Made by a program: the position numbers and the translations under genes. Below, in pieces: positions 28,154-45,141 of a stretch of DNA of 47,895 nucleotides (the stretch's first letter is position 1; the number at the start of each line of letters is the position of its first letter). This DNA comes from a virus: IMG/VR virus record IMGVR_UViG_3300005295_000034, positions 1-47,895 of that record. One strand, given 5' to 3'. Under the pieces are notes generated by a model. It ran no database searches and was not told the origin of the DNA. It saw only the letters and a program-made list of their open reading frames with translations.

Positions 28154-28466
28154 GCGCACCGCCGAGCCTGAACACCTCCGCGGAAAGAAAACAGTCAAGA
28201 TCAACGATTTTGTCATCATCAGTGAGACGGAGAAAGCCTGGCTACTACGTAAGAACGCCGCAGACAAGTCGGAGAAGGCATTCTGGGTTCCAAAGTCCCA
28301 GTGCCATCTCCACTCTCACGCAACCAATCGCCGGCTGCATGATCTGGAAATCGTGCGGACCATCGCGGAGGAAAAGGGCTTGCTCGACGGAGAGCCAGAC
28401 CAACTCGCAGACAAGTCCATCATGGACGAATTCGACCAACTGATCGCGGAAAGGTATAAGAAATGA
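28137..28466 (+). CDS. Early protein, 109 residues, unknown
   Basis: Starts at ATG 28137 in the end of the previous gene and overlaps the ThyX start (ATGA). It has a basic N-terminus (MRKKYERTAEPEHLRGKK), a beta-type segment (VIISETEKAWLLRKNAADK, then FWVPKSQC) and a helical tail. The strand pattern suggests a small beta-barrel. The function is unknown. Confidence 0.58.
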   Translation: MRKKYERTAEPEHLRGKKTVKINDFVIISETEKAWLLRKNAADKSEKAFWVPKSQCHLHSHATNRRLHDLEIVRTIAEEKGLLDGEPDQLADKSIMDEFDQLIAERYKK

Positions 28467-29122
28467 AGCAGTACAACCCAGAAGTTAAAATGGTCTGGAC
28501 AACCCCAAACGCCGAGGGGGTCATCATAGACTGTGCGCGGGTGAGCAGCAGTAAATCTGCGGGCATGCCGGACAACGGCCTCATCCGCTACCTTATCACC
28601 CATAACCATTGGTCTCCGTTCGAAATGTCAAACATTTGTCTGGAGATCACCGGCGTCCCGCGCGACATCACCCGCCAGCTGTTACGACACAGGTCGTTCC
28701 ACTTCCAGGAATTCTCCCAACGCTACGCCGACACAGCCAGCCTCGGCGGCCTCATCGGGCGAGAATGTCGCATGCAAGACCCTAACAACCGCCAGAACTC
28801 CCTCGACGCCACAGACCCAGCTTTGATCGAATGGTGGAATGCTACACTGAAGTGCATCGGCGCGGAGGCAACAAACCTCTACACCGAGGCGCTCGGGAAG
28901 GGAATTGCGAAGGAGGTCGCACGAGCTATCCTCCCCGAGGGGATGACTCCCACTCGCATGTTCGTCAACGGTACTGTCCGCGACTGGATTCACTACGTTC
29001 GTGTGCGGCGGACGAACGACGCACAAGCCGAACACCAAGAACTTGCGCAGAAAATCGCCGATCAACTATACCATATCATCCCGCGGATTTCTTCTGTCGC
29101 GTTTGAGGATATGGCGGACTGA
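28463..29122 (+). CDS. thyX: Flavin-dependent thymidylate synthase ThyX
   Basis: A 219-residue protein of normal ThyX length. The ThyX signature RHRX7S is at 75-85 (RHRSFHFQEFS), followed by QRYAD. The C-terminal NGTVRDWIHYVRVR segment supplies the arginine and flavin/dUMP contact region. The enzyme makes dTMP from dUMP using FAD and methylene-tetrahydrofolate, increasing thymidine supply during phage replication. It sits upstream of palindrome copy C and the replication genes. Confidence 0.92.
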   Translation: MKQYNPEVKMVWTTPNAEGVIIDCARVSSSKSAGMPDNGLIRYLITHNHWSPFEMSNICLEITGVPRDITRQLLRHRSFHFQEFSQRYADTASLGGLIGRECRMQDPNNRQNSLDATDPALIEWWNATLKCIGAEATNLYTEALGKGIAKEVARAILPEGMTPTRMFVNGTVRDWIHYVRVRRTNDAQAEHQELAQKIADQLYHIIPRISSVAFEDMAD

Positions 29123-30679: not shown

Positions 30680-32065
30680 ATGGACCAACAAATCATTTAC
30701 GTCGGCGTAGCAAACATGATCTGGAACAAGCGCGTGTTTCAGATGAAAGAGGGGACCGTTAAGGAACTCAAATCCTCCATCCCCGAGGTCGGCCTCATCC
30801 AGCCGATCATTGTTGCAGAAACGGAGGATCCTAACACCTGGCGGCTTATCGTCGGGCGCAAGCGCTACCAAGCATTCAAGGAACTATACAAAGAGAATGC
30901 AAACCGCACGCTGAAATTCTGCGGAGCGCCAATCCCCTTCGGCGCGATCCCTGCGATCAACGTGCGTGACGTCAACCCTGAACTCCTGCTCAAAATGGAG
31001 GTCCACGAGAACGTCCACCGCATGGACCTCACTTGGCAAGAGCGCCTCGCCGCGTTGGCGGAATTGCACGAGGTCGAGCGCAGGAAGTTCGAGGAGAAGA
31101 AAGCGCAAGGGGAAGTCCCCGCAACCGCGAATTATACTGTGTCTGAGACCGCGAAAAAGCTCGCCGGTGTTGTCGGTGGGAATGAAGCAGCCATTGCCAA
31201 TCGCATCAACCGCGCGCTGATCATCGCCGATAATCTCGACGATCCCGAGGTCGCACGAGCAGAGTCCGCATCCGCCGGGTTCAACAACCTTAAGCGCAAA
31301 CTCACTATCGCCGCTCGTGTTGCCGGCGCAGACTACGGAACCGAGACCCCCCACACACTACTCGAAGGCAACTGCCGCGAGATCATGCCAGCGCTCGAGT
31401 CCGGCACCTTTGACCTCGTCTTCGGCGACCCGCCCTACGGCATTGGCGCGGACACATACGACAACATGAAACCGCACGAGTATGACGACTCCATCCGCTC
31501 CGCGATTCTAACCTACAAATCAATCTGCGACGAAGGCTTCCGGCTGGCCAAGCCCGGTGCGCAGCTCCTCCTCTTCGGCACCATCGAGCACTGGCATATG
31601 ATCCGTGACCTCGCCGCCGAGGCTGGCTGGGAGCCATGGTTCCGCCCGCTCATTTGGCTGAAGTCCAACGAGGGCATGCGTCCTTGGGGTCAAAAGGGCT
31701 TTGCCTACACCTATGAATGCCTAATGTGGGCGCGCAAGGGGCAGAAGGGGCTGATCCAAACTGCAACGGACGTATTCTCAGTCTACCGTCCTGCACCCTC
31801 CCAGCGCGAGCACGCAGCAGCAAAGCCGTTGGACCTCATCAAACGTCTGTTCGAACTCACCTGCCTTCCCGGCGACTCCATCCTCGACCCATGCGTGGGC
31901 AGTGGCATTTCATATAAAGCCGCTACCCTCCTCGGCATGAAGGTTACCGGCATTGAGTACGTCGCTGACACCGCTCTTATCGCGCGGAAAAACATGCACT
32001 GGGATGGCAAAACGGAAGAGGTGGAAATTGTCAAACCAGGATCGGACAACTTGGACGACCTATAA
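30680..32065 (+). CDS. ParB-like nuclease domain fused to DNA methyltransferase
   Basis: A 461-residue protein. Residues 1-120 are a ParB/Srx-type domain (GLIQPIIVAE, LIVGRKRYQAF, MEVHENVHRMDLT), followed by an HTH-like linker. The methyltransferase part has motif IV DPPYG at 250-254 and motif I DPCVGSG at 403-409, so IV precedes I as in beta-class amino-methyltransferases that modify adenine N6 or cytosine N4. It may protect phage DNA from restriction. AAGGGG lies six bases before the ATG. The C-terminus is SDNLDDL, shared with other early proteins. Confidence 0.85.
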   Translation: MDQQIIYVGVANMIWNKRVFQMKEGTVKELKSSIPEVGLIQPIIVAETEDPNTWRLIVGRKRYQAFKELYKENANRTLKFCGAPIPFGAIPAINVRDVNPELLLKMEVHENVHRMDLTWQERLAALAELHEVERRKFEEKKAQGEVPATANYTVSETAKKLAGVVGGNEAAIANRINRALIIADNLDDPEVARAESASAGFNNLKRKLTIAARVAGADYGTETPHTLLEGNCREIMPALESGTFDLVFGDPPYGIGADTYDNMKPHEYDDSIRSAILTYKSICDEGFRLAKPGAQLLLFGTIEHWHMIRDLAAEAGWEPWFRPLIWLKSNEGMRPWGQKGFAYTYECLMWARKGQKGLIQTATDVFSVYRPAPSQREHAAAKPLDLIKRLFELTCLPGDSILDPCVGSGISYKAATLLGMKVTGIEYVADTALIARKNMHWDGKTEEVEIVKPGSDNLDDL

Positions 32066-32087: not shown

Positions 32088-32291
32088 ATGGAGCTGTTCG
32101 ACAGCTTCCCCCGCTGGGTGCGCGATGAATTAAACGAGATCGCGACAAATCCCGACGACATGTTCGGGGTACTCCACGCGCTTAAGTTTGGCGACGTTAG
32201 AGATAAACTGCGGAGACTTAAAGATGAGGACAGACAGTGGCATAGAGACGCCTTTTCTTGCACCATTGAGCCGCGAGGAAATTATAGGTGA
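32088..32291 (+). CDS. Small early protein, 67 residues
   Basis: MELFDSFPRWVRDELNEIA onward: a short helical, charged protein. GGGGA lies five bases before the ATG. Its 3' end overlaps the start of the UDG-polymerase gene by 68 bases. The family is not recognised. Confidence 0.52.
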   Translation: MELFDSFPRWVRDELNEIATNPDDMFGVLHALKFGDVRDKLRRLKDEDRQWHRDAFSCTIEPRGNYR

Positions 32292-34035
32292 CCTTTGGAC
32301 TGGAACACGAGGCGATAAAAAGGCGCCGATTATGGTCGTCGGCGAAGCTTGGGGCGAGAACGAACGCGCTTCCGGCAAGCCGTTCGTCGGCGCGAGTGGG
32401 CAAGAACTAACCCGAATGCTACGTGAGGGAGGGATAAATCCAAATGACTGCTTCTACACAAACGTCATCAACACAAAGCCAAACGGAAACGACTTCACCA
32501 ACTTCCTCATTCCAAACGACAAAGGGAAGAAGGGACAATACGCAGTACGCCCGACCGTCGAGCTTATTCAGGGGTTGCAAAAGCTCGACGCACAGATTGA
32601 CGCGGTTGCGCCTCGTCTTATCCTTGCTTGCGGGAACTGGCCCTTGTGGCACCTGACCGGCAAGGCAAACATCAAAACCGAGCGGGGCTATCGTGTCGCC
32701 ACGGGGATTGACTCCTGGCGGGGGTCACAGCTTTACCTAAATAAATCCTCCGGCCGGAATGCGCACGGTATTCCAGTCCTCCCCACCTACCACCCTGCCG
32801 GCGTGCTGCGCATGTGGCCGTGGAGGAGAATTACTGTCCAAGACTACCGCCGGGCTGCAGCCTTCATGCGGAACGAAATCACTTGGCATGACGCCAAGGC
32901 TGCGCTCCGCGCCAATATCGTACATCCCAAACCGCACCAACTTCTCGAAGTCCTCAAACGTTGGGCAAGCGACCCCTCTCGCCCGATCACCTGCGACATC
33001 GAGACAAAGGGAAACCTTATCCACATTATGGGGTTATCTCGTGACGGGTTGCTCAATACTGCCGTGCCGTTTTTCCACATCACCGCGGAGGGGACTCGTC
33101 CTGCATACAACCCCTATGAATTCCAGCAAATTTACCGCATGCTTTACGAGTTCTTCCTCACCCCTGGCCTCAAGTTCATCGGCCAGAATTTCAACTTCGA
33201 CCTCCAATACATCGCGCGGTATTTCCACAAGACAATCGACTGCGTCCATGACTGCATGGTTGTTCAGCACGCCATGTTCCCAACCATGAGGAAGAGCCTG
33301 GACTTTATGTCCTCCATGTATTGCGAGCACCATGTATATTGGAAGGATGACCTGAAAGAATCCACCGACACATTCGACACAAACCAAGCCTGTCTGTACA
33401 ACTGCGAAGACCTGTGGCGCACGAAGGAGGTGTACGACAATCAACAAATTGTAATGGACCAACTCGGCAAACGCCCGCAGGTCGAGCGTCGTATGCGCCT
33501 ATTCCCCATTACTAATTCCATGATGAACGACGGCGTGCTAATCGATCGCCGCCTTCGCGATAGCATGCGCATCAAGCTCATGGATACCGCGCACAAGATT
33601 GAACTTTGGCTTTACGACATCATGCCACCCGCCGTCATCGAACGCGCGGGACTGACAAAACTCCAGGCGAAAACTGCGTGGTACAACTCCCCAACACAGC
33701 TTGCAACTATCCTCTTCGACACACTCAAACTTCGCACAACATACTACGGTCGTTCAACCGACAAGGAGGCCCTCGTTGAGCTCAGCGAATACTACCCGCA
33801 CTATTCCGGGCTTTTCTCTGCAATCCTACTGCTCCGATCTGTTAATGTCGTCGCAGGGAATATCCTCTCCGCAAAGATGGAGAATGATAACAGACTTCGA
33901 ACTCTATATGATCTCGCGAAGGCAATCACTTTCCGACTTTCTTCCGGGAAGAACGTATGGGGAGGTGGCGCGAACCTCCAAAACATAATGCGTGATCGGG
34001 AAGATATGGACCTCTTCGAACAGGATTTGATATGA
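32224..34035 (+). CDS. UDG domain + 3'-5' exonuclease + N-terminal part of family A DNA polymerase
   Basis: A 603-residue fusion. Residues about 34-210 form a family 4-like uracil-DNA glycosylase: GEAWGE at 40-45, KPFVGASG at 52-59, and HPAGVLR at 190-196; the iron-sulphur cysteines of family 4 enzymes are not seen. Residues 250-405 are a DnaQ-type exonuclease with D258/E260, QNFNFD at 321-326 and YNCED at 392-396. The C-terminus carries the polymerase segment RLSS at 571-574 and NLQN at 584-587, then stops. Motif A onward is encoded separately at 34787. The start has GGAG eight bases upstream. Confidence 0.85.
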   Translation: MRTDSGIETPFLAPLSREEIIGDLWTGTRGDKKAPIMVVGEAWGENERASGKPFVGASGQELTRMLREGGINPNDCFYTNVINTKPNGNDFTNFLIPNDKGKKGQYAVRPTVELIQGLQKLDAQIDAVAPRLILACGNWPLWHLTGKANIKTERGYRVATGIDSWRGSQLYLNKSSGRNAHGIPVLPTYHPAGVLRMWPWRRITVQDYRRAAAFMRNEITWHDAKAALRANIVHPKPHQLLEVLKRWASDPSRPITCDIETKGNLIHIMGLSRDGLLNTAVPFFHITAEGTRPAYNPYEFQQIYRMLYEFFLTPGLKFIGQNFNFDLQYIARYFHKTIDCVHDCMVVQHAMFPTMRKSLDFMSSMYCEHHVYWKDDLKESTDTFDTNQACLYNCEDLWRTKEVYDNQQIVMDQLGKRPQVERRMRLFPITNSMMNDGVLIDRRLRDSMRIKLMDTAHKIELWLYDIMPPAVIERAGLTKLQAKTAWYNSPTQLATILFDTLKLRTTYYGRSTDKEALVELSEYYPHYSGLFSAILLLRSVNVVAGNILSAKMENDNRLRTLYDLAKAITFRLSSGKNVWGGGANLQNIMRDREDMDLFEQDLI

Positions 34036-34202
34036 AACCTTCTCTAAAAGCCTTGTCTAGGCTTGAACTAGCGCAGGAAGCAGCGTATGGCACTGGCGAC
34101 AAACAATTCGCCAGCGATCTTCGTGCCTTGTTGGATTTCTACTACACTCAAACAAATACGCCAAGACAACCTGCCGCAACCGACGATGATATGGAGGAAT
34201 AA
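34032..34202 (+). CDS. 56-residue protein inside the split polymerase locus
   Basis: Reads MKPSLKALSRLELAQEAAYG onward, helical, ending in an acidic tip (ATDDDMEE). Its ATG overlaps the stop of the polymerase N-part (ATGA), and its stop is one base before the HD-protein start, where its last codons supply the GGAGGA ribosome-binding site. It is unrecognised. It might help the two polymerase parts associate, but this is only a guess. Confidence 0.55.
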   Translation: MKPSLKALSRLELAQEAAYGTGDKQFASDLRALLDFYYTQTNTPRQPAATDDDMEE

Positions 34203-34203
34203 A

Positions 34204-34800
34204 ATGAGCAACCCTCGCTACTGGATGCAGACATTCACCGGCCGTCCATTCCGCTTCGACGCGCCGCTCAATCTTGAGATCGAGATTAAGGATATCGCCC
34301 GTCCGCTATCCCGCGTCTGCCGTTTCGCTGGGCATACAAACTCCTTTCTCTCCGTCGCCGAACACTCAATGGCAGTGCATTGGCTCATACACAAATACAA
34401 CCCCGATAATTGCCTCCTCCAAATGCACGCGTTGATGCATGACGCGCATGAGGCTTTCTTCGGGGACATTATCTCCCCGCTGAAACGCTTCCTTGCAGAG
34501 GAGTATTATATCGACATCAATGAGATGGAAGCTAGCGCACAAGTCAATATCCTCGCAGCGTTCGGCATCCAGCTTTTGGATAGCATCCACGACGCTGATG
34601 CTATTGCACAAGCTGACCTCGCCTGTACGAAATGCGAGCGGGACCTGTACATGGCATCCCCTCTCCAATGGGACCTTGACCATGTCACCTATCCCGACGA
34701 CCTCCCCAAAGTCTACCCTCGTCTATCCTCTAACGAAGCCTTCGGGCTTTTCATGGACACGTTCAACGAATTGAAGGACAAGCTCAATGCTCAAGGTTGA
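34204..34800 (+). CDS. HD-domain 5'-deoxynucleotidase (YfbR-like)
   Basis: A 198-residue protein, the usual length for YfbR. The HD metal site is complete: H44 (FAGHTNSF), H79-D80 (ALMHDAHEAFFGDI) and D138 (AIAQADLAC). The 35-residue gap from H44 to H79 equals that in E. coli YfbR. Such enzymes remove phosphate from dNMPs; related phage proteins (DatZ) hydrolyse dATP. It lies between the two halves of the polymerase gene, with GGAGGA six bases before its ATG and a 14-base overlap with the second half. Substrate is not decided by sequence. Confidence 0.8.
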   Translation: MSNPRYWMQTFTGRPFRFDAPLNLEIEIKDIARPLSRVCRFAGHTNSFLSVAEHSMAVHWLIHKYNPDNCLLQMHALMHDAHEAFFGDIISPLKRFLAEEYYIDINEMEASAQVNILAAFGIQLLDSIHDADAIAQADLACTKCERDLYMASPLQWDLDHVTYPDDLPKVYPRLSSNEAFGLFMDTFNELKDKLNAQG

Positions 34801-35665
34801 ATGGCCGCCAATTCGCGACACATTCCTCCCCGACCCTGGCTGGGTTCTATTCGATATGGACCTCGCCGGGGCTGACGCGCAGGTCGTTGCATGGGAGGCA
34901 AACGACGAAGACCTCAAAGCCGCCTTCCGCGCCGGGCTGAAAATCCATGTCCACAATGGCATTGCCATGTACGGCCGGGACGTCATGTATGCCACCGACC
35001 CGAAGGGCAAGTCCGAGCCAGTCTACACCCGTGTGAAGCGCGGAGTCCACCTGACCAACTACGGTGGTATGGTCTCCACCCTCGCTTCCAAATGTGCCAT
35101 GTCAATCGGCGAAGCGACGAAGTTCCAATACGACTGGTTCTCCCTCCACCCTGGCATTGTCGACTGGCATGAGCGAACTGAGTTCGAAATCCAAACGAAA
35201 GGGGAGACCTCAAACAAATTTGGCTATTCCGTCCCGTGGAACGACCGGCCATCCAAGCGCATCTGGCGACAAGCTCTAGCCTGGACGCCGCAATCCACAA
35301 TCGCACACGTAACCGAGGAGGCAATGCTACGTCTATGGGCTGAGCGTGAGACCAACCCACACTTCCGCAAATACCTGAAGATTGTGATGAACGTCCACGA
35401 CTCTCTCATAATCTCAGTCAAACGTGAATACATCCCAGCAGTCATGCCTCGAGTCTTCGAGCTTTTGCACAGCATTGTCATTCCGTACGACGACCCTCTC
35501 ACTATCCCTTGGGGAGTGAAGCGCGGAGCGACCTCGTGGGGCAAAGCGAAAGAGACAACCTGGGAAGAAATCCTAAATGAGTCAACTGAAATTGGTAGAA
35601 ACACAGAAGGAGTCGCCGAAGCGAAAGTTCCCGGACTGGATCGAAGCTTACATCCAGTACACTGA
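34787..35665 (+). CDS. C-terminal part of family A DNA polymerase
   Basis: A 292-residue protein that begins just before motif A. Motif A is GWVLFDMDLAGADAQ with D25 matching the catalytic Asp705 of E. coli Pol I, and an Asp (D30) where Pol I has Glu710. The O-helix region is RVKRGVHLTNYGG (82-94), with Y92 at the Phe762 position. Motif C is NVHDSLI (202-208) with D205. With the polymerase part at 32224-34035 this makes a complete palm and fingers. Both parts would need to associate. The end overlaps the next gene by 89 bases. Confidence 0.85.
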   Translation: MLKVEWPPIRDTFLPDPGWVLFDMDLAGADAQVVAWEANDEDLKAAFRAGLKIHVHNGIAMYGRDVMYATDPKGKSEPVYTRVKRGVHLTNYGGMVSTLASKCAMSIGEATKFQYDWFSLHPGIVDWHERTEFEIQTKGETSNKFGYSVPWNDRPSKRIWRQALAWTPQSTIAHVTEEAMLRLWAERETNPHFRKYLKIVMNVHDSLIISVKREYIPAVMPRVFELLHSIVIPYDDPLTIPWGVKRGATSWGKAKETTWEEILNESTEIGRNTEGVAEAKVPGLDRSLHPVH

Positions 35666-36872
35666 CGATACAGAAGCGCCTATTGAGTTCCATATGTGGA
35701 CTGCGCTAGTTACCCTCTCCGGCGCAGTGCAGCGTAAGGTGTGGGTCGACCTGGCCCACTTCCAATGGGTGGCAAATCTGTACGTCATGCTTGTCGGCGA
35801 GCCAGGGATTGTCACAAAGTCAACTTCCATCCGCATTGGACAGAATCTCCTCCGCGGGGTGAAGGGTTTTGTGAAAGGCCCTGACTCTGTCACCTGGCAG
35901 GCACTAATCGACGCCTTCGGCGAGGCGTCACAATCGTTCAAGTTCGAGGGAGGGGACATGGTACAGTCCCCTCTCACACTCTTCATCGCAGAGCTTGGGA
36001 ACTTTCTCGACCCAGACAACCGCGAAGCAATGGACCTTCTAACTGATATGTGGGATGGACAGGCAACGACATTCACCCGGCGGACACGCGGCAGTGGCGC
36101 GATGGAAATCATCAACCCGTGGCTGAACTTCATCGGTTGCACTACACCCACCTGGGTCCAGAACAACTTCTCTGCGGATCTTGTCGGCGGCGGGTTTGCG
36201 TCCCGTCTGATCGTCATTTACGGAGACAAAAAGCGAAAGCTCATTGCCTACCCCGGCTTGTCACAAGGTGGATTGAAGACGCACATGGAGGACGATCTCA
36301 TCCACGACCTGCGTCATATCGCCCGTCTGATCGGCCGGATGCAAATCTCCCGCGAGCCAGAGACTGTCAGACATGTTGGTCTTGATGGGAAGATGGCGGA
36401 CTTCCACTACCCCGGCGGAGCGCTGCAATGGGGGGAAGAGTGGTATATGAGGATTCAAAACGAACGTGGAAAGGAAGCAATATCCCGCCGGGCCAGCGGG
36501 TATTACGCGCGGAAGCAAGCGCACCTGCACAAAATCGCGATGCTACTATCCATCGCATATAAAGATGACTTAATCATAACTGCGGCGGACTTGGTCAACG
36601 CTCACAATATCCTACTCATGGTGGAGAAAAACATCATGAAGGTGTTGTCGAATGTTACTAACCGACAGGCCGCAGCTCGCAACGCAATGGAGATATTGAC
36701 ACTACTGCAATCGAACCAGAACTTGACTGAGGCTGACATCTTCGGGCATCTGTGGACCTTCATGTCGAAGAAAGACTTTGACGTTGCACTTGAAAGTCTC
36801 CAAGCCGCGAAGATGGTGTTCACGCAAAACGTCGGCGGGAAGCCGTACTTGAGAGCAAAGGTTAGGACATGA
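35577..36872 (+). CDS. DUF3987-like primase/helicase ATPase
   Basis: A 431-residue protein with the typical lead of DUF3987 proteins (FHMWTALVTLSGAVQRKVWV) and a degenerate P-loop VGEPGIVTKST at 73-83; the usual GK pair is replaced by VTK, a known variant type in this group. An acidic Walker-B-like strand LFIAELGNFLD follows at about residue 134. The C-terminal part is helical with a winged-helix-like segment. It probably acts as the replicative helicase or a primase partner. It directly follows the polymerase. Confidence 0.7.
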   Translation: MSQLKLVETQKESPKRKFPDWIEAYIQYTDDTEAPIEFHMWTALVTLSGAVQRKVWVDLAHFQWVANLYVMLVGEPGIVTKSTSIRIGQNLLRGVKGFVKGPDSVTWQALIDAFGEASQSFKFEGGDMVQSPLTLFIAELGNFLDPDNREAMDLLTDMWDGQATTFTRRTRGSGAMEIINPWLNFIGCTTPTWVQNNFSADLVGGGFASRLIVIYGDKKRKLIAYPGLSQGGLKTHMEDDLIHDLRHIARLIGRMQISREPETVRHVGLDGKMADFHYPGGALQWGEEWYMRIQNERGKEAISRRASGYYARKQAHLHKIAMLLSIAYKDDLIITAADLVNAHNILLMVEKNIMKVLSNVTNRQAAARNAMEILTLLQSNQNLTEADIFGHLWTFMSKKDFDVALESLQAAKMVFTQNVGGKPYLRAKVRT

Positions 36873-37309
36873 AGAAAGATTTCCACACACATGTTGAAGT
36901 TACGCATTACAGTGAGGAATGGGACAACGAAACTGAAAAATATTTGACCGTTCTCCAGCGCCGACTGGTGCCCAAGAAAGGCGCAATACTCTCAGAAAGC
37001 CGTGATAACGACGGCACAAAGTACGTCATTCTGGAGTATTGCTATTTCGGCGATGGTCCATCCTTCCGTATCGAAGGCACCTACGAGGAACTGCGCGAGC
37101 TATTTACCGGCAAACCTACCGTACCCGACGTTGGTCAATTACCGCCGGGCTGGGAGGGACCCCTTGAGCCGGACTGGGAGAAGGCGTTCCCTGGAATAAG
37201 TCCTCAAGAAGAGCGTCATCAAGAGGGGCACTCGGTTGAGCGGGCACTCGCCGACGAAGCCCACTTGGCGGCGGAGCTTCCGGGAAGAGTTCCTGAACCT
37301 CGCGGCTGA
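36869..37309 (+). CDS. Last early protein, 146 residues, unknown
   Basis: Starts on the stop of the previous gene (ATGA). The first 85 residues form a beta-rich domain (HTHVEVTHYSEEWDNETE, KYVILEYCYFGDGPSF). From about residue 83 the gene overlaps the 3' end of the giant minus-strand gene by 194 bases, and there the sequence becomes Pro/Glu/Gly-rich and probably disordered. The family is not recognised. Confidence 0.55.
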   Translation: MKKDFHTHVEVTHYSEEWDNETEKYLTVLQRRLVPKKGAILSESRDNDGTKYVILEYCYFGDGPSFRIEGTYEELRELFTGKPTVPDVGQLPPGWEGPLEPDWEKAFPGISPQEERHQEGHSVERALADEAHLAAELPGRVPEPRG

Positions 37310-40300
37310 CGCCACGTAAATTTTTGGCGGTAGGAGTCCGACTCTCCTTCGCCTTCCGTTCCCTTTCCCGCGTCTTCAAACTTTTCTGGAGGGTATCTTG
37401 CGTTATTTTCAAACCACTATCTGGCACTTCCTGATTAAATTCCTTGATGGCACTGCGGGCGTCTTGCTTCCCTTCGACGTCATTGAGGCGTGCAGCACGA
37501 CCGTAAGCATTGAGAAGAAGCTTTCTCTGCCCGGTCCAATACATCTGGACTTCTCGTTGCGCTTGGATAGCGTCCCACTGCCGCGTAAGTTGAGTGGGCT
37601 GAAAGCCGAGGCCAACGGCAAGAGCGTCCATTTGGTCACTGATGTCGTTGGGATCGAAATGCGTGACTGTGGCTCCTCTTGTGTCTCGTTCTCTCTTTTC
37701 TGCAAGGTAGCGGCTGGAACGCGATACGTCCTTGAGCGCCCTGGGCATGGCACGCTCCCAGCGCTTTGGGTCATCACTAGGCAAGGCGGAGTCTACAGCA
37801 CTGTTATAGACGGCAAGCGGAACGCCAAGAAGCGGCCCGGCAATTTCACGAGTCACGTCTCCGAGCATCTCCGTGAAAGAGGATCCCTTTGGGTCCATAA
37901 GCGCGGCAAGGCCTGGGACGAGCTTGCCCATCGACAGGCTACCGGACAAATCGGCGCTGCCGGAGGGAAGCCCAACACCCTGGAGCGCTGCTGGTATCCC
38001 GAAGCCAGCACGGGAGGCGCCGTTGAGGAGGATGTCAGCAACGTGCCCATCTCCGACGAAGTCTTTGATCATTCTCCGAACAAATAGCTGCGGGTTGATG
38101 TCAAATCCCAGCAGCTTGCCGAGCGCCTTCGCCAGGGCCTCGGCATCCTCCGCGCCGGGAAGTCCCATAATCCCGGCGACAGCGAATAGCATCAGCATGA
38201 AGCGGACTTGCGTTCCCCTATTTGCATTAAACATGAAGAACATCATGTTTTGCAGGTAGGTTTTGAACATGAAGAGCACGCCTCTCCCACCCTGCATGAT
38301 CTTCGGCCGTGCCCAGCGGGAGTATTCGAACTGCGTGTCACGCACCGTCTGCGTCGCGAAGATATACGCCGCAGTTTGCCGGTCGCCCCAGCCACGGTCC
38401 TGCTTCAGCCGTCCAACTTCCACCTTGTTCTTGACCAGCGCTTCCTGGACGTAGGGGTTATCTGGATTTGCAATTGCAAGGTCATACGCAGTCCGGAAGG
38501 TGACGCTACGGTTGAAGCGCTCGGCGGCTGCGAAGGGATATGTCCCCCATTGCGCAACTGTCCTCATCCCGCGGGCGAAGTTTCCGTCCGCAATAGTCCT
38601 CGACAGCACGCTTCCCTGGCTAACCGCCGCTAGCTCCTGGGCGAAGCCGTCGTCGATCACGCGAGATGCATGCGCCTCATCCAGTGCCTCCTGCTTCGGG
38701 CCATTGGGGTCGATTGTGCTCTTCCCCATCACCCAATTCTTCATATCCTTAATGTTGTAGTTCATCGTCTGCAGCGCAGCGGAGGAAATCCCGCGCTTGG
38801 TTCCCGGGAACTTCGACGCAAGGTACGGGTATGTCACCATCGGCACCTGCGATAGATTCACAAACGCCGCTGCAGGGGCGAAGGCGAAATACCACATAAA
38901 TCCCAGCGCGCGCACGGACGCCCATTCACCGGCGGGGTTCATCTCCGCGTCGAAATGGCGTTGCATATAGTCAGCGATCCTTGAACGACTGTCCCGCGAA
39001 ATCGGCGAGGCCGTCCGACGCACATCCTTGATGCTTTCCTGCAACCTGTGGGCGTACTCCATCCGGGCCACAAACCTTGCGCTTCTTGCGAAATATGTGG
39101 CATACGCGCGCATACCGTCACTACTATACCCCGGCGTGTTCGTGCGCTCAGAGAGGTTGTGGCGGAAAGAATTGACCGGGATGGAGTCGAAAGTCAGCCC
39201 TTCCAGGGCTTCAAGATCCTTCTTCTGTTGCTCCGTCAGCTGCTCGGCGTCAAGTCCCAGCGACTTTTTGACATTCTCCAATGCAAAGCGTGGTAGTCCC
39301 TGAAACTGCTGCATCGTTGGGGACATTTCATCCGACACAATGGAAGCTTCTTGAGGGACCTTGTAATCTTTCTGCACCTTCACAATCGTAGCGTCGCGGG
39401 CTTTCGCCGTGTCGAAGGCAGCGAAGTATTTGACCTGTCTGGTCTTCGCATCTCGAACAGTTAGAATATACTTGCCGAAACGCATGTGAGGGAAATAAGG
39501 CTGCGCACGCATTGCGGCAATATCGCTGGAAATCTCCGTGATTTTCGCCTGCAAAAGTGCGTCATCCGTTATCGTCTCCTGTGCATTCCGAATGCCAGTG
39601 ATTTCCACCTGGGTCAGGAATGAAAGGAAGTCCGTGCGGATATTCTTATAAACCTCAAACGCTTCGCGAGAGAGCTTGTGCTTGCGGACAATAGCAATCA
39701 ATTCCTGGTCTGTCGGCCAGCGGGGTTTTTGCGTACCGTCCTTAAGTTTCTTCGGATCGAGATAGACCATCTGATCGAGGTCAAACATCAAGTTCCACAA
39801 TGCCTGCTGCATAGGCTTAGGAAGAGCCTGCGCTTGGCGCAAACGGTTGTCTGCCATGGTCGCCCAGGACAGTGCATCGTCCTCCATCGCGCGGGTGGCG
39901 GTGACGTAGCGGCGGAGCGGCTCGATGTGTGGGTTCAGGTCCGCCAGTTGGTGAATGCCCAGCAGCCATTCGAGAATGGTATTGTGTCGATCGGCGCTGG
40001 CGAGCAACCCCTTGAGTTTTTGTTTGTCCCCGGCATCCATGTCCGGCACGAGGTCGAGCAACTTCCTCACCTGCAGGGTACTGGCCCGTTGAGGCGTTGC
40101 AACGACATACTCCATATTCCAGCCATTCAGCGCAGATTGATTATCCGCGATGGACTGCAACGCAGACTTCCTAGTCGTCTCGCTGAGGAATGGCTCCTCC
40201 GTCATAAGCGAGTCTAACCCGCGTAACTCCATCCGCTTGAGCCAGTCGAGCACTTCCTTCGCTGGCTTGCCTTTCATGCGGTCTGCGTCGAAAGGCATTC

Positions 40301-43300
40301 CCACAAGATCAGCAACCTTCTTCAGCATCTGCTTGATCATGGAAGCAGACCGCGCGAAGAACTTCTGCATGAATCCTAGTTGCGAGCCGGGGTCGACCAT
40401 CGCGCGGGAGATATTTTGTACGATCCATTCTTCAAAGTTATACAGATCTTTTTTTCGCCCTCTTTCGCCAATAGCACGCATAAGGATGGGGTGAGCGAAA
40501 ACTCTTGCCATTGCCGCTTCTCGAGAGAGGCTAGCAGCAGCGTGGGCTTCGCGGGTGTAGGCATTGTAGAGCGCATCCTTTTCAGATTGCGTTAGATTTC
40601 CGTACTCATATTTGACAATTATCTGCCCGAGAACGCGAGTGAAGTCGGTGTAGAATTGCGCCAGTGCAACAGGGTCGGTGAACCCCTTCTGCGGATCGGT
40701 GCCGAGTTGGACAGCAATCTTCCCAGCTTTAGACAATATCGGCTTCGGCTCCGGCGGGCGCGGCGGGTTTTCGACAGTCGACTTCCACGCACGAGCTTCC
40801 GCGGTGTCGGTATCACCTACTCTCGCCGCGCTTTCACCAAACTCCTGCTGGAGAGCGTTGAACAGCTCATCATACTTGCCAGTATGCGTGAGCCTAAATG
40901 CAGTCTGCACCCCGCGAGTCTCGCGGATCGAGCGGAAGTGCGTTGCGCCAGGATACTGCGCCTTGAACTGCTCGGTGGTGAGTCCAAGTTTCTTCAAATT
41001 CGACGGAATCGCAGGCTCAATCGAAATGGTGTCGCCTTCAGTCTGTCCCTCTCTCGGGCGGAGGACAAACATATTCTTGCGGTTAGAGTCCTTTGTGTAA
41101 AGACCCTTCCCACCTTCGGTATTCTTTGCGTATTTCCAAGGATCGATTTGAATAATACTGCGTGATTGAGGCTTCCCACCGGGGGTCAACGGCCGGTCAT
41201 CCTCAATGTATTTCATCGACGCTTCGCCGAGCGATCCCGGCGCGACAACCTCGACGAAGAAGTCGGTTTTCAACCCTAGCGACCGAGCCATATTGCGCAG
41301 GAAGATGAGCATTTTGGAACGCGTGCCAGTCTGCTGGTATGGCACAGCGCTTTCTTTCGTCGCAGGCTCCAGCTTCCCGGTGATGAAGTCCTGCAGGAAG
41401 GTGTTATGCAATTGCGACTGGAACAGTATTTCTGTCGCTAAAGCATCAAACCCCACGAACTTAGCAACTCGCGGGTCACGACTCCTCTTCGCGCGCTGCT
41501 TAATCAGCCTGCGCGTTCCAGCGTCAACGGAGATCTCCGGCCCGGCGTAGTCACGGACCTTATCGACCAGCTCACTCTCACGAACCTGCCGGAGAACAGC
41601 ATACTCCTGCGTATTGGGGGTAACGTCAAGTCGAAGCCCTTGATCGACGAGCTTCATGAACCGCTCGACGGTATCCGCCTTCTGTTTGTAGAATCTAATC
41701 CCCTGTTGCATTGAAGATAGGACATTCACCAACTCCTGCAGCAACTCCTTAGGGTTCGCTACTCCTTCCGTGAATCGAATTCCGCGCGCTTTCGCCGAGT
41801 TGAGGTCCAAGCTTCTCGCGATTTGATGATTCGCCAGTACCTGCCGAGCAAGATCTCGCGTTGGGAATGATGTAATGTCATCAGGAGAAATGTTCTCCAG
41901 GTCAATCGCTTTTCCCCCTGGCCGTGTGCGACTTTTCGGGGCCCCCGACGCCATGACATAGAACTGTCCTCCGCCTGGTCGAGTACGTGTCTCCAGCAAG
42001 TTTGCACGAGATACCTGTGGATCGACTGTTGCCTGCGCGAGAAGAAGCTTCTCTGCTTTAGCAGGGTCGCGCAGCATAATTTGCCCGTCGGTATATGGCT
42101 CAACTCGCGCGCCTTCATTCACCGCCTCGCGATAGGCGGCCTGGGCAACTTCAAATAGTCTTTCCCGTCTACGCATATTCGGCGTTGCATACGCCTGTCC
42201 GACGAAACGAATTGCGCTCGCGAGTTTCCCACTCGCGCTCGACATCATCTCCGGATTTGTGAAGTCGATACGTGGGTCGTCAAGGCTAGACGGCAGGTCC
42301 TCTACCACCGCGGTAATATCCCCGCGCGTGATTTTGGACGGGTCTAGCCGCACAAATCCACTTCCTTGATAATAGTCGTTGTCATTGTTTGCCTGATCTT
42401 GCGATCCAAAGAGTGTCTCACGTCCGGGAATGACTGCGCCGTAAAGACCCCGAGATCGTAGATCGACTTCTCCCAAAATCTGGTCCAACTGTGCCCCAGT
42501 GGCAACCCCGGCTGTAGCGTCGAGACCATTGCCGGCGGTTCGGACGATGTGCTCAGGTCCAGTTGTTGGCAGCTCTTCTGGCGATCCTCCGAAGACGATT
42601 GGAACTTCACCCACGGAGTCCCGAATATCTTTGTCGAGGAGCACAGTCTGTGCGCGTTCGCTGGTAAGAGACGAAAGTATGCCACCGCCAACACCTCCTG
42701 CAATCATCGCGTTGAGCCGGCGAGACCACGCCTCCGGCGAGAGTTGTGAGAATTTCTCGTCGAAGAAGCTCCGCGCAGTCATGTCGATTTCTTCTTGCGC
42801 GAGTTCAGTCAAACCCTCGGTGGCGATGCCAGCGGCGGCTTGGCCGAGGCGTCCACCGCCACGATTGGCGAGAGTTGTAAGTATCTGGCCGAACATGTCA
42901 TTCCCCTGCCCGATTGTCAGGCCATACTGACGGGCGAGGATTAGAGGGAAGAGGGACTCGAGCGCGCCCTTGGCAGTACCGGCGGCGATGGAAGTTATCG
43001 GGTAGACTTCCTTCGTGCCCTCGTACAACTCGCGCGCAGTTGCGCCGGTCTCAATCGCAGCGCCGGTTGCGAAAGCGCCAGCGAAGGCGGGAGCGGTGGA
43101 TTTGATGAGACTTTGCGTCGCTGCTGGCACAGCTGCACGGGTGAGAACCCGCTGGAGAAGACTTCCCGCGCCAGCGCCAGACATGATGGACAGGACGAAA
43201 GGTACTGCCTCGCCCGTCACGCCAGCGACATACCTCGCCCAAGACATGGGGTTGAGTGTAAGGTCTTCAACTTGCGCGACACCACGCTTAGCGCCCCCTT

Positions 43301-43673
43301 CGGCGATTTGTCGCGACCATTCGACGTAGCTTTCCGCAAGGCTTTCGTCGAATGGATATGCAACAAGACCCGCCAAGGCGTGCGGGGTCGCGGCGATCTG
43401 GCGAACACCAGACTGCAAGCCAGCGCCGAATTCGCCGAAGGCTGTCTCTGCTTTGGCGTCGCCCCACAAAGTATTCGACTCACTCTGTTGCGGCGGGGTT
43501 TTCGGCATTGCAACGTTAGAGGACGGTTGCGGAGCCGGGCCGAACAGGGAGTCGTAAAGATCTGTGGATTGTACCCCTGTTTGGGAGGAAACGGCGGGTG
43601 AGGCCGTGTCCACTCCAAACAGATCATCGATGACGGAATTACTTGGGTTTTGCGGCTGCTGGGGTGTTGGCAT
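37116..43673 (-). CDS. Giant ejection/internal virion protein (PLxRFG-type)
   Basis: The product has 2185 residues from ATG 43673 (a TTG 11 codons earlier is possible). The N-terminus is Pro/Gln-rich, followed by Ala/Gly-rich hydrophobic helices (about residues 125-330). Near residue 1395 the motif YFPHMRFGKY matches the PLxRFG signature of very large phage proteins, with His for Leu. Around residue 1524, NTPGYSSDGMRAYATYFA is another family mark. Hydrophobic segments near 1825 (FKTYLQNMMFFMFNANRG) could insert in the host membrane. Such proteins are packaged and ejected with DNA, like T7 gp16. No lytic or protease domain is certain. Confidence 0.78.
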   Translation of the reverse strand: MPTPQQPQNPSNSVIDDLFGVDTASPAVSSQTGVQSTDLYDSLFGPAPQPSSNVAMPKTPPQQSESNTLWGDAKAETAFGEFGAGLQSGVRQIAATPHALAGLVAYPFDESLAESYVEWSRQIAEGGAKRGVAQVEDLTLNPMSWARYVAGVTGEAVPFVLSIMSGAGAGSLLQRVLTRAAVPAATQSLIKSTAPAFAGAFATGAAIETGATARELYEGTKEVYPITSIAAGTAKGALESLFPLILARQYGLTIGQGNDMFGQILTTLANRGGGRLGQAAAGIATEGLTELAQEEIDMTARSFFDEKFSQLSPEAWSRRLNAMIAGGVGGGILSSLTSERAQTVLLDKDIRDSVGEVPIVFGGSPEELPTTGPEHIVRTAGNGLDATAGVATGAQLDQILGEVDLRSRGLYGAVIPGRETLFGSQDQANNDNDYYQGSGFVRLDPSKITRGDITAVVEDLPSSLDDPRIDFTNPEMMSSASGKLASAIRFVGQAYATPNMRRRERLFEVAQAAYREAVNEGARVEPYTDGQIMLRDPAKAEKLLLAQATVDPQVSRANLLETRTRPGGGQFYVMASGAPKSRTRPGGKAIDLENISPDDITSFPTRDLARQVLANHQIARSLDLNSAKARGIRFTEGVANPKELLQELVNVLSSMQQGIRFYKQKADTVERFMKLVDQGLRLDVTPNTQEYAVLRQVRESELVDKVRDYAGPEISVDAGTRRLIKQRAKRSRDPRVAKFVGFDALATEILFQSQLHNTFLQDFITGKLEPATKESAVPYQQTGTRSKMLIFLRNMARSLGLKTDFFVEVVAPGSLGEASMKYIEDDRPLTPGGKPQSRSIIQIDPWKYAKNTEGGKGLYTKDSNRKNMFVLRPREGQTEGDTISIEPAIPSNLKKLGLTTEQFKAQYPGATHFRSIRETRGVQTAFRLTHTGKYDELFNALQQEFGESAARVGDTDTAEARAWKSTVENPPRPPEPKPILSKAGKIAVQLGTDPQKGFTDPVALAQFYTDFTRVLGQIIVKYEYGNLTQSEKDALYNAYTREAHAAASLSREAAMARVFAHPILMRAIGERGRKKDLYNFEEWIVQNISRAMVDPGSQLGFMQKFFARSASMIKQMLKKVADLVGMPFDADRMKGKPAKEVLDWLKRMELRGLDSLMTEEPFLSETTRKSALQSIADNQSALNGWNMEYVVATPQRASTLQVRKLLDLVPDMDAGDKQKLKGLLASADRHNTILEWLLGIHQLADLNPHIEPLRRYVTATRAMEDDALSWATMADNRLRQAQALPKPMQQALWNLMFDLDQMVYLDPKKLKDGTQKPRWPTDQELIAIVRKHKLSREAFEVYKNIRTDFLSFLTQVEITGIRNAQETITDDALLQAKITEISSDIAAMRAQPYFPHMRFGKYILTVRDAKTRQVKYFAAFDTAKARDATIVKVQKDYKVPQEASIVSDEMSPTMQQFQGLPRFALENVKKSLGLDAEQLTEQQKKDLEALEGLTFDSIPVNSFRHNLSERTNTPGYSSDGMRAYATYFARSARFVARMEYAHRLQESIKDVRRTASPISRDSRSRIADYMQRHFDAEMNPAGEWASVRALGFMWYFAFAPAAAFVNLSQVPMVTYPYLASKFPGTKRGISSAALQTMNYNIKDMKNWVMGKSTIDPNGPKQEALDEAHASRVIDDGFAQELAAVSQGSVLSRTIADGNFARGMRTVAQWGTYPFAAAERFNRSVTFRTAYDLAIANPDNPYVQEALVKNKVEVGRLKQDRGWGDRQTAAYIFATQTVRDTQFEYSRWARPKIMQGGRGVLFMFKTYLQNMMFFMFNANRGTQVRFMLMLFAVAGIMGLPGAEDAEALAKALGKLLGFDINPQLFVRRMIKDFVGDGHVADILLNGASRAGFGIPAALQGVGLPSGSADLSGSLSMGKLVPGLAALMDPKGSSFTEMLGDVTREIAGPLLGVPLAVYNSAVDSALPSDDPKRWERAMPRALKDVSRSSRYLAEKRERDTRGATVTHFDPNDISDQMDALAVGLGFQPTQLTRQWDAIQAQREVQMYWTGQRKLLLNAYGRAARLNDVEGKQDARSAIKEFNQEVPDSGLKITQDTLQKSLKTRERERKAKESRTPTAKNLRGVSREVQELFPEAPPPSGLRRRVPAQPSAPLDDALLEDLFQGTPSPSPAQGVPPSPAVIDQRRVR

Positions 43674-45141
43674 TCGTCGCTGCCTTTGCTCGTTTAATAT
43701 TCTCAATCCGCTGCATTAAGATGGCGCGTTGAACTGGGTCGCCAGCCACGGTATTCATTATGGCGATTTCATTCGGCGTGCCAACGTGCTGACGGAGTTT
43801 GTCCTCGGGAATCTCGTCCGACCTTGCCATGCCCCGCGCGGCGCGAGAACGTGCGTCGATGACTTTCGTTTCACGAAGAATGGCGTTGTACTGATCAGCT
43901 TCGGAGAGAGTTGCGGTGGTGCCGTCCGGATTGGTCACCTCCGACTCGCCCTTCAGATTTTTCAGTCGCTGTTGGAAATACAACGTCGCCTCGGGGGACA
44001 GATTCTCGCCGAATGCCTCCAGCGGTTTTTTCTCTTTAACGCGTTTGGAGCGGGAGGACTCCGTCGCCCTCCTACCACTCCCCATCCTATCAACGCGCGC
44101 CTGTTCCAGCTCGAGCTTCTTCTGCCCCATGGCAGTTTCTTGCTCTTCCTTCTTCGCGCGTCCGACAGCTTCAGCACCTTCACCTGCTGCCATGCCGATA
44201 TTCGCCAGCGGCCCGCCCCAACGGGGGACCATAAGGCTCAGCCCCATCTGGAGCATGAACTTCGCCAGGTCATTATTACCAGACGGCGAGCCAGACGGCG
44301 TCGGGGCCATCTGTCCAGGGGAGCTTGGAGCGGAGGAGCCGCGGGGTGTTGCAGCCGACCCTCCACTCTCGCCGTCTGGTTTCCCACCGGACAATTGCTG
44401 CCCAATGGGCGGAGGTGCAGGCGTACTAGGCGCGGGACTACCTTCGAACGTCTGCTCTCCAATAGGTGGTGGAGCGCTAGTTTTGCCCGGTGGGCCTCCC
44501 ATTGGCGTGCCAAACATGCGCTTTGCAAACCACCAAGCGGCATTGGCAGGGTTGAGGCCAGGAGGAGCTATGTCGTAAGGAGCATTCGCTGCACGACCAG
44601 GGATGCCAGCGGCGTAGTCCGCAATGCGCTCCGCCGAGTCGTATTTGTCCTCGCCGCTGGAAGGCGGGAGGGTCTTGCGAGTGAAGCTATCGTCCTTCGC
44701 GACGCCTTTATTGCGGTCGATAATGCGCGATGGAGTTGGCGTGTTGAATTCGTTCGCCCACCGATTGAGCTTCTGCGTCGTATTCTCTGCATTAGGATCG
44801 GGGTTAGACGGCGGGACGGTTTTCCTCGTCGTGCTGTCGTCAGATACAACGCCTTTGTTTCGATCAATCGTACGTGAAGGCGTCGGCGTGGTGATGTCGT
44901 TCAACAGCCGGGATAGAAGTTGGACAGTGTTCTCCGCGCCGGGAGTTGGAGCGCTCGGCGGGAGAGTAGTGCGAGAGGTGTTATTGTCACCAACTCCTGC
45001 ATTACGATTGATCATGCGAGTGGGAGGAGGAGCGGGGACAGTGTACTGCTGCGGCACAGGCTGTTGCATCAAACGCGGGTCCTGGTCGGGCCGCATACGA
45101 CCATACCCTGTGGCCTCCAAAATTTGTTGCAACGTGGCCAT
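43639..45141 (-). CDS. Virion protein with tandem repeats
   Basis: A 500-residue protein. Residues about 36-162 contain three copies of a roughly 49-residue repeat with the core PTPSRxIDRNKGV, then DDSxTRKTxPPS. Pro/Ser/Gly-rich linkers follow to residue 290, then a helical region (KKEEQETAMGQKKLELEQAR) and a C-terminal helical domain. It resembles ejection-complex or internal core proteins in position, directly before the giant protein gene. The ATG shares a base with the previous stop (TAATG). Confidence 0.65.
   Translation of the reverse strand: MATLQQILEATGYGRMRPDQDPRLMQQPVPQQYTVPAPPPTRMINRNAGVGDNNTSRTTLPPSAPTPGAENTVQLLSRLLNDITTPTPSRTIDRNKGVVSDDSTTRKTVPPSNPDPNAENTTQKLNRWANEFNTPTPSRIIDRNKGVAKDDSFTRKTLPPSSGEDKYDSAERIADYAAGIPGRAANAPYDIAPPGLNPANAAWWFAKRMFGTPMGGPPGKTSAPPPIGEQTFEGSPAPSTPAPPPIGQQLSGGKPDGESGGSAATPRGSSAPSSPGQMAPTPSGSPSGNNDLAKFMLQMGLSLMVPRWGGPLANIGMAAGEGAEAVGRAKKEEQETAMGQKKLELEQARVDRMGSGRRATESSRSKRVKEKKPLEAFGENLSPEATLYFQQRLKNLKGESEVTNPDGTTATLSEADQYNAILRETKVIDARSRAARGMARSDEIPEDKLRQHVGTPNEIAIMNTVAGDPVQRAILMQRIENIKRAKAATNANTPAAAKPK

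Follow-up and report, generated by a model that had tools for sequence, protein, structure and literature searches.

A family A DNA polymerase encoded in two pieces at a palm loop in an uncultured bacterial virus and its relatives

We investigated a 47,895-nt (47.9 kb) stretch of DNA, referred to below as the window, which is the single IMG/VR virus record IMGVR_UViG_3300005295_000034 of an uncultured bacterial virus, and in which one family A DNA polymerase is encoded as two open reading frames (ORFs) lying 751 nt apart. Family A polymerases are, by the textbook view, single-chain enzymes. Among the relatives of the window polymerase, the site of the split was conserved, transitions between split and intact genes were repeated, both halves were under purifying selection, and the genes carried in the gap, termed cargo here, were varied. 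Judging from the sequences, we consider it highly probable that the two ORFs (N-half and C-half) form a polymerase that requires both chains and is pieced together at a flexible loop of the palm, and that the border between the two cistrons is an insertion site, often for nucleotide-pool genes.

The two polymerase halves and the split point

The N-half (32224–34035, plus strand; start codon ATG at 32224, with an upstream TTG at 32188 possible, and stop codon at 34033–34035) comprises a family-4-like UDG domain, a 3'-5' exonuclease, the thumb and the first palm segment. Its Pfam matches were UDG (PF03167, E 1e-20), DNA_pol_A_exo1 and the first part of DNA_pol_A (profile positions 30–135), and it matched phrog_17; the fusion to a UDG domain and an exonuclease, noticed in an earlier sequence-only reading of this DNA, was borne out by the Pfam matches. 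A UDG superfamily match and PDB matches 4zbx, 1vk2 and 1ui0 would place the UDG domain in family 4. The DEDD exonuclease residues D258, E260, D326, Y392 and D396, which supply the acidic residues of Exo I–III and the Exo III tyrosine, were invariant among 135 relatives. The C-half (34787–35665, plus strand; DNA_pol_A profile positions 141–359) comprises the remaining palm and the fingers, with motifs A (D25), B (K84, H88 and Y92) and C (H204-D205). The presence of all three motifs, with D25 and D205 as putative catalytic aspartates and K84 and Y92 as the O-helix Lys and Tyr, is that expected of family A, but the window polymerase departs from the family in having thumb, palm and fingers distributed over two ORFs rather than on a single chain. 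The entire polymerase family carries His for Phe762, Asp for Glu710 and Ser for Glu883 of E. coli Pol I; no mention of His at position 762 was found in the virioplankton PolA literature checked.

Alignment of profiles of the halves with the Klenow chain placed the N-half at positions 51–357 and the C-half at positions 365–597. Together with the DNA_pol_A alignments, this indicates that the halves follow directly on each other in a single Pol I fold, without loss of any core segment, and that the cut falls within approximately eight palm residues between the NLQN motif and motif A, in agreement with the sequence-only reading, which had placed the end of the first part just after NLQN and the beginning of the second before motif A. 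In E. coli numbering the cut would lie at about 680–688, a value obtained by arithmetic only, on the assumption that the Klenow chain begins at residue 324. At the split point (33985–34035, plus strand), the N-half ends in the tail NLQN-IMRDREDMDLFEQDLI, with 16 residues after NLQN, and the C-half has 7–8 residues before an I/V-R helix. The corresponding region of an intact relative (L011) is a coil loop; in its predicted model (mean predicted local distance difference test score, pLDDT, 92.2), the coil extends over residues ~507–536 (~30 residues), from just before NLQN to the helix preceding motif A, and confidence drops to 76 around residues 521–530. The C-half alone gave an AlphaFold2 model with a mean pLDDT of 93.3 and Foldseek matches to Klenow and Taq with probability 1.00. 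As judged from the models, a break in this loop need not disturb the core, yet would leave neither half with a complete palm.

Because neither half holds a complete polymerase fold, we infer that the halves must associate. In the proposed mechanism, the N-half would contribute the UDG-like domain, the proofreading exonuclease, the thumb and the first palm part, and the C-half would bring the fingers and what remains of the palm, including the catalytic aspartates; in the simplest reading, the cistrons are coupled on a single message and the two chains would probably assemble during or shortly after their translation. The flexible loop that carries the break, in the palm between NLQN and motif A, would tolerate the missing covalent link and, having become the border of two cistrons, could accommodate foreign genes within the replication operon. 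A hidden second polymerase was rejected: searches of the window record, the ends of which are unconfirmed, turned up no further PolA, PolB or PolIII-alpha.

Recurrence of the split and constraint on the halves

IMG/VR was scanned with profiles of both halves, phages were added, and de-duplication left 242 polymerases with a readable state. The set comprised 154 intact polymerases and 88 split at one loop; the split share of 36% is not an unbiased frequency, the set having been sampled by similarity to the queries. Two described phage genomes, those of Microcystis phage Mel-JY34 and phage ctMlz233, encode the enzyme intact. The claim of the sequence-only reading that one polymerase is truly divided, and not broken by a frameshift or an assembly error, is upheld by the 88 relatives that share the split, most of them with complete genes in the gap, on which grounds assembly or sequencing error was rejected. 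With so many relatives cut at this spot, the division has the appearance of a functional arrangement that recurs, and not of a mistake. The distance from NLQN to the stop codon was 6–8 residues in 70 of the 88 split loci and 5–8 residues in 74, and the loop in intact relatives ranged from 2 to 27 residues (median 15). The halves were separated by anything from an overlap to 2.9 kb, the gap being shorter than 60 nt in 22 split loci; a few of the overlapping cases (L299, L302 and L305) could be sequencing frameshifts. A different split was observed in Caulobacter phage Kuura and phage ctLwi270 (L004, 4950–8354; L005, 1727–4364), where the UDG/exonuclease part is separate from the thumb-palm-fingers gene.

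Counted irrespective of direction, changes between the split and intact states numbered 14 on a tree of 135 loci, at least seven of them forced by strongly supported branches, and 21 on a tree of 242 loci. In the 135-locus tree, the window fell in a clade of 26 members, all split, with a nested clade of five that all carry the HD nucleotidase gene described below; the latter clade was monophyletic in separate N- and C-half trees (support 100 and 99). Most strong branches of the two half-trees agreed, and conflicts were not concentrated in the split rows. The ratio of nonsynonymous to synonymous substitution rates (dN/dS) in close split pairs was 0.06–0.14 for the N-half and 0.04–0.16 for the C-half, compared with 0.05–0.07 in an intact pair. 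All 58 split pairs examined kept the exonuclease D/E/D/Y/D residues, R571, the motif A D and the motif C D, and 57 of them kept the motif B K. The low dN/dS and the retained catalytic residues indicate that both halves are maintained as functional protein. Since the halves also co-diverge, their assembly into one enzyme is very likely, so the suggestion of the sequence-only reading that the neighbouring products form one complex finds support as far as the polymerase halves are concerned. Three observations weigh against the two-chain interpretation: the 26-member split clade was recovered from the N-half and not from the C-half alone; the correlation between N- and C-half distances was moderate (0.59 for split and 0.68 for intact polymerases); and the HD cargo evolved faster than the polymerase halves (dN/dS 0.24–0.29).

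Cargo of the gap and competing explanations

Gap genes were assigned by HMM and family scans. The commonest cargo in relatives was dUTPase (16 loci, two of them near-duplicates), followed by HNH endonucleases (six split loci, one with the gene beside a dUTPase; not in the window), YfbR-like HD nucleotidase (five), ribonucleotide reductase (four), MazG-type pyrophosphohydrolase (four), a Lon-C-like gene (three), methyltransferase (two), and a nucleoside deoxyribosyltransferase-like gene in L353 with a similar sequence in L359; many small unknowns were also present, and some gaps were empty. In the first locus set, counts inside the gap versus elsewhere in the flanks were 16/4 for dUTPase, 5/0 for HD and 3/0 for ribonucleotide reductase, a skew that inheritance within clades accounts for in part. 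HNH endonuclease genes were additionally observed directly 3' of the intact polymerase in L138, L151, L161, L056 and L105, which suggests that the polymerase locus is a frequent homing target.

The gap in the window contains two ORFs, as the sequence-only reading had described, the first of which turned out to be the weaker gene call. This 56-aa ORF (34032–34202, plus strand) had no match in phages, Pfam or PHROGs and no counterpart in the other four HD-type phages, and its GC content at third codon positions was 0.44, compared with 0.64–0.65 in neighbouring genes. The second encodes a predicted YfbR-like HD-domain 5'-deoxynucleotidase of 198 aa (34204–34800, plus strand; phrog_318, E 1e-42), the likeliest start of which is the ATG at 34204 following GGAGGAATAAA, rather than the longer ORF start at 34087. 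The protein matched PF12917 with E 2e-5, slightly under the curated cut-off, had PDB profile matches to Atu1052 (2gz4) and YfbR (2paq/2par), and keeps H54, H79-D80, E83 and D138, corresponding to the metal-site H...HD...D residues and the Glu of YfbR-like enzymes. It is most likely a deoxynucleotide-pool enzyme acting by itself, and as a separate enzyme would trim the deoxynucleotide pool.

The junctions agree in part with the short overlaps claimed earlier: the N-half and the 56-aa ORF share an ATGA overlap and the HD gene and the C-half overlap by 14 nt, but the 56-aa ORF and the HD gene are separated by a 1-nt gap (TAA-A-ATG). In most split loci, the N-half stop codon is overlapped or directly adjoined by the next start codon, with ATGA or TAATG couplings. 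Shine-Dalgarno-like codons before the stop were found in 64 of 87 split versus 54 of 144 intact polymerases (p 1e-7), and Gly encoded as GGA in 37 of 65 versus 20 of 94 (p 5e-6), with weak tree-corrected support for the two enrichments (median p 0.22 and 0.03, respectively). Such codons would be expected if a new gene has to start there, and they may have followed the split instead of having made the site prone to it. We also observed that the five HD-type N-halves (those of the window, L008, L020, L021 and L027) end in a distinct tail of 16–20 residues after NLQN (RDRE..LF/FY.A.E.L) that is absent from other split N-halves and is a candidate interface segment.

The strongest competitor concerns the origin of the split and not the working of the enzyme. 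A free-standing homing endonuclease may have entered the conserved loop, broken the gene and later been lost or replaced, leaving the two-chain enzyme as a tolerated by-product; we regard this as possible. HNH genes lie in the gaps of L023, L054, L080, L113, L306 and L375 and just 3' of polymerases in relatives, and the polymerases of L022 and L023 are near-identical, with an HNH gene in the gap of L023 and none in that of L022. Comparable cases come from T4-like phages, in which nrdA and gene 60 are reported to be split by homing endonucleases and the split of gene 43 to be associated with them (PMC2988022). The L022/L023 pair and the six HNH-bearing gaps point to mobile endonucleases as one route to the split. 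However, most split loci lack an endonuclease, and L022, split without one, and L165 and L166, split without any insert, show that the split can precede or outlast the endonuclease.

A physical polymerase–nucleotidase complex appears unlikely. Here the HD protein, alone or together with the 56-aa protein, would be bound to the split polymerase and would work on nucleotides at the polymerase active site. The gene order, the translational coupling and the occurrence of HD in all five clade members are in keeping with such a complex, and the N-half tail of this clade could be a docking segment. Against this, the gap gene is swapped between unrelated families or is absent while the halves stay conserved, HD is under weaker constraint, and the other four HD-type phages lack the 56-aa ORF. 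The part of the sequence-only reading that tied the nucleotidase to the split was not sustained, and HD-specific coupling was rejected: an HD gene in the gap is confined to the clade of five (5/5 members), and relatives carry dUTPase, ribonucleotide reductase, MazG, HNH, unknowns or nothing. Of 71 HD loci in IMG/VR, only four relatives were flanked by these polymerase halves, and in three others (L175, L221 and L238) the gene immediately 5' of the related HD nucleotidase encoded a more distant family A polymerase, showing that the HD–polymerase neighbourhood extends beyond the split family.

It is very improbable that an intron, an intein or a frameshift unites the halves in a single chain. 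Introns in phage polymerase genes are known, one has been suggested for phage MEP401 (PMC10580990), and a frameshift at the stop codon could link the halves in insert-free loci. However, no Rfam intron family was matched at the gathering threshold in seven loci including the window, on which basis a group I intron was rejected, and the inserts are complete genes abutting the stop codon. A split intein was likewise rejected: the 16 residues after NLQN and the 7–8 before the helix are too few for intein halves, and no splicing domain was found. Stop-codon recoding was discarded because N-halves end variously in TGA, TAA or TAG. Equally hard to credit is a decaying polymerase, with an N-half serving only as glycosylase/exonuclease and a C-half dead or independent, for although Kuura and ctLwi270 keep the UDG/exonuclease part as its own gene, the thumb and all polymerase catalytic residues have been retained, both halves show low dN/dS, and the window record yielded no other polymerase.

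Known systems, genome context and significance

Split phage polymerases are already known, and the window polymerase is a variant of them. A split PolA was noted in the OM43 phages MEP401 and MEP402 (Methylophilales), for which the authors proposed a possible intron (PMC10580990). As in the window, PolA is encoded there by two genes with a small ORF between them, the exonuclease and NLQN lying in the first half and motif A onward in the second; unlike in the window, there is no UDG domain, the insert is a 77-aa unknown, and the cut in MEP401, which belongs to a different PolA clade, lies ~15 residues later, immediately ahead of motif A. In the Aeromonas T4-like phages 25 and 44RR, the split products gp43A and gp43B co-purify and are active, and the gene 43 split of phage 25 has a seg-type endonuclease gene associated with it (PMC2988022). 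These too are phage replicative polymerases in two polypeptides, but of family B, and no nucleotide-pool cargo was described for them (PMC2988022). In Aeromonas phage Aeh1, nrdA is split by mobE and still functional, according to a report cited in PMC2988022; as far as that citation goes, an essential enzyme is divided by an inserted gene as in the window, but the enzyme is a ribonucleotide reductase and the insert a homing endonuclease.

Within the same family, Vibrio phage vB_VspS_VS-ABTNL-3 (MF497422, PVS_29/28/27) has the identical split point, but its gap encodes an unrelated protein of 184 aa, to which other phages have related proteins. Mel-JY34 and ctMlz233 share the UDG-exo-Pol domain order and are 34–36% identical to the window polymerase, but encode it as a single chain. 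Z-genome phages (PurZ/DatZ/DpoZ) resemble the window in that a single genome carries both an HD nucleotide hydrolase and a family A polymerase (PMC8599892). The window differs in having no PurZ-family gene (PF00709 was matched neither there nor in nine related records, the record ends being unconfirmed) and in its HD protein, which is closer to YfbR/Atu1052, with no DatZ entry among the PDB sequence matches listed for it; a Z-genome polymerase with DatZ was rejected for lack of PurZ. No description of recurrence at one loop across a family, or of nucleotide-pool cargo, was found in literature searched without most subscription journals. The arrangement, which the sequence-only reading had called unusual, is indeed rare among described genomes, but within this polymerase family it is common.

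The terminase, portal-like, major head and tail genes are encoded on the minus strand of the window and the replication module on the plus strand. Upstream of the N-half lies a ParB-N/DNA methyltransferase fusion gene (30680–32065, plus strand), a conserved context, with a methyltransferase or ParB gene also near the polymerase in L001–L003 and L005. Downstream, a DUF3987/primase-like gene (35577–36872, plus strand; PF13148, phrog_14296) begins within the end of the C-half, the 89-nt overlap (35577–35665) coinciding with a disordered C-half tail. A ThyX gene further upstream of the split polymerase (28463–29122) was present in one of 12 related records examined. A 2196-aa ORF (37116–43706, minus strand) ends against the replication module, and relatives such as L001 and L003 have long ORFs in an equal position. 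When bacterial and archaeal genomes were scanned, the six matches obtained lay in metagenome bins.

More broadly, we put forward tentatively that a large phage lineage may use an obligate two-subunit family A replicase that arose by repeated fission at one palm loop, with the gene border serving as a reusable slot for nucleotide-pool enzymes, so that assembly of the polymerase and control of the dNTP pool would be co-regulated. Metagenomic polymerase surveys may log such genes as fragments, and the natural break point suggests itself for a split-polymerase tool. Repeated fission at one loop provides natural pairs of split and intact enzymes for testing how the loss of a palm link is tolerated, and the split family offers a test of how complexes arise from single chains and of whether the break serves a purpose, for instance in regulation or as a place for gene insertion.

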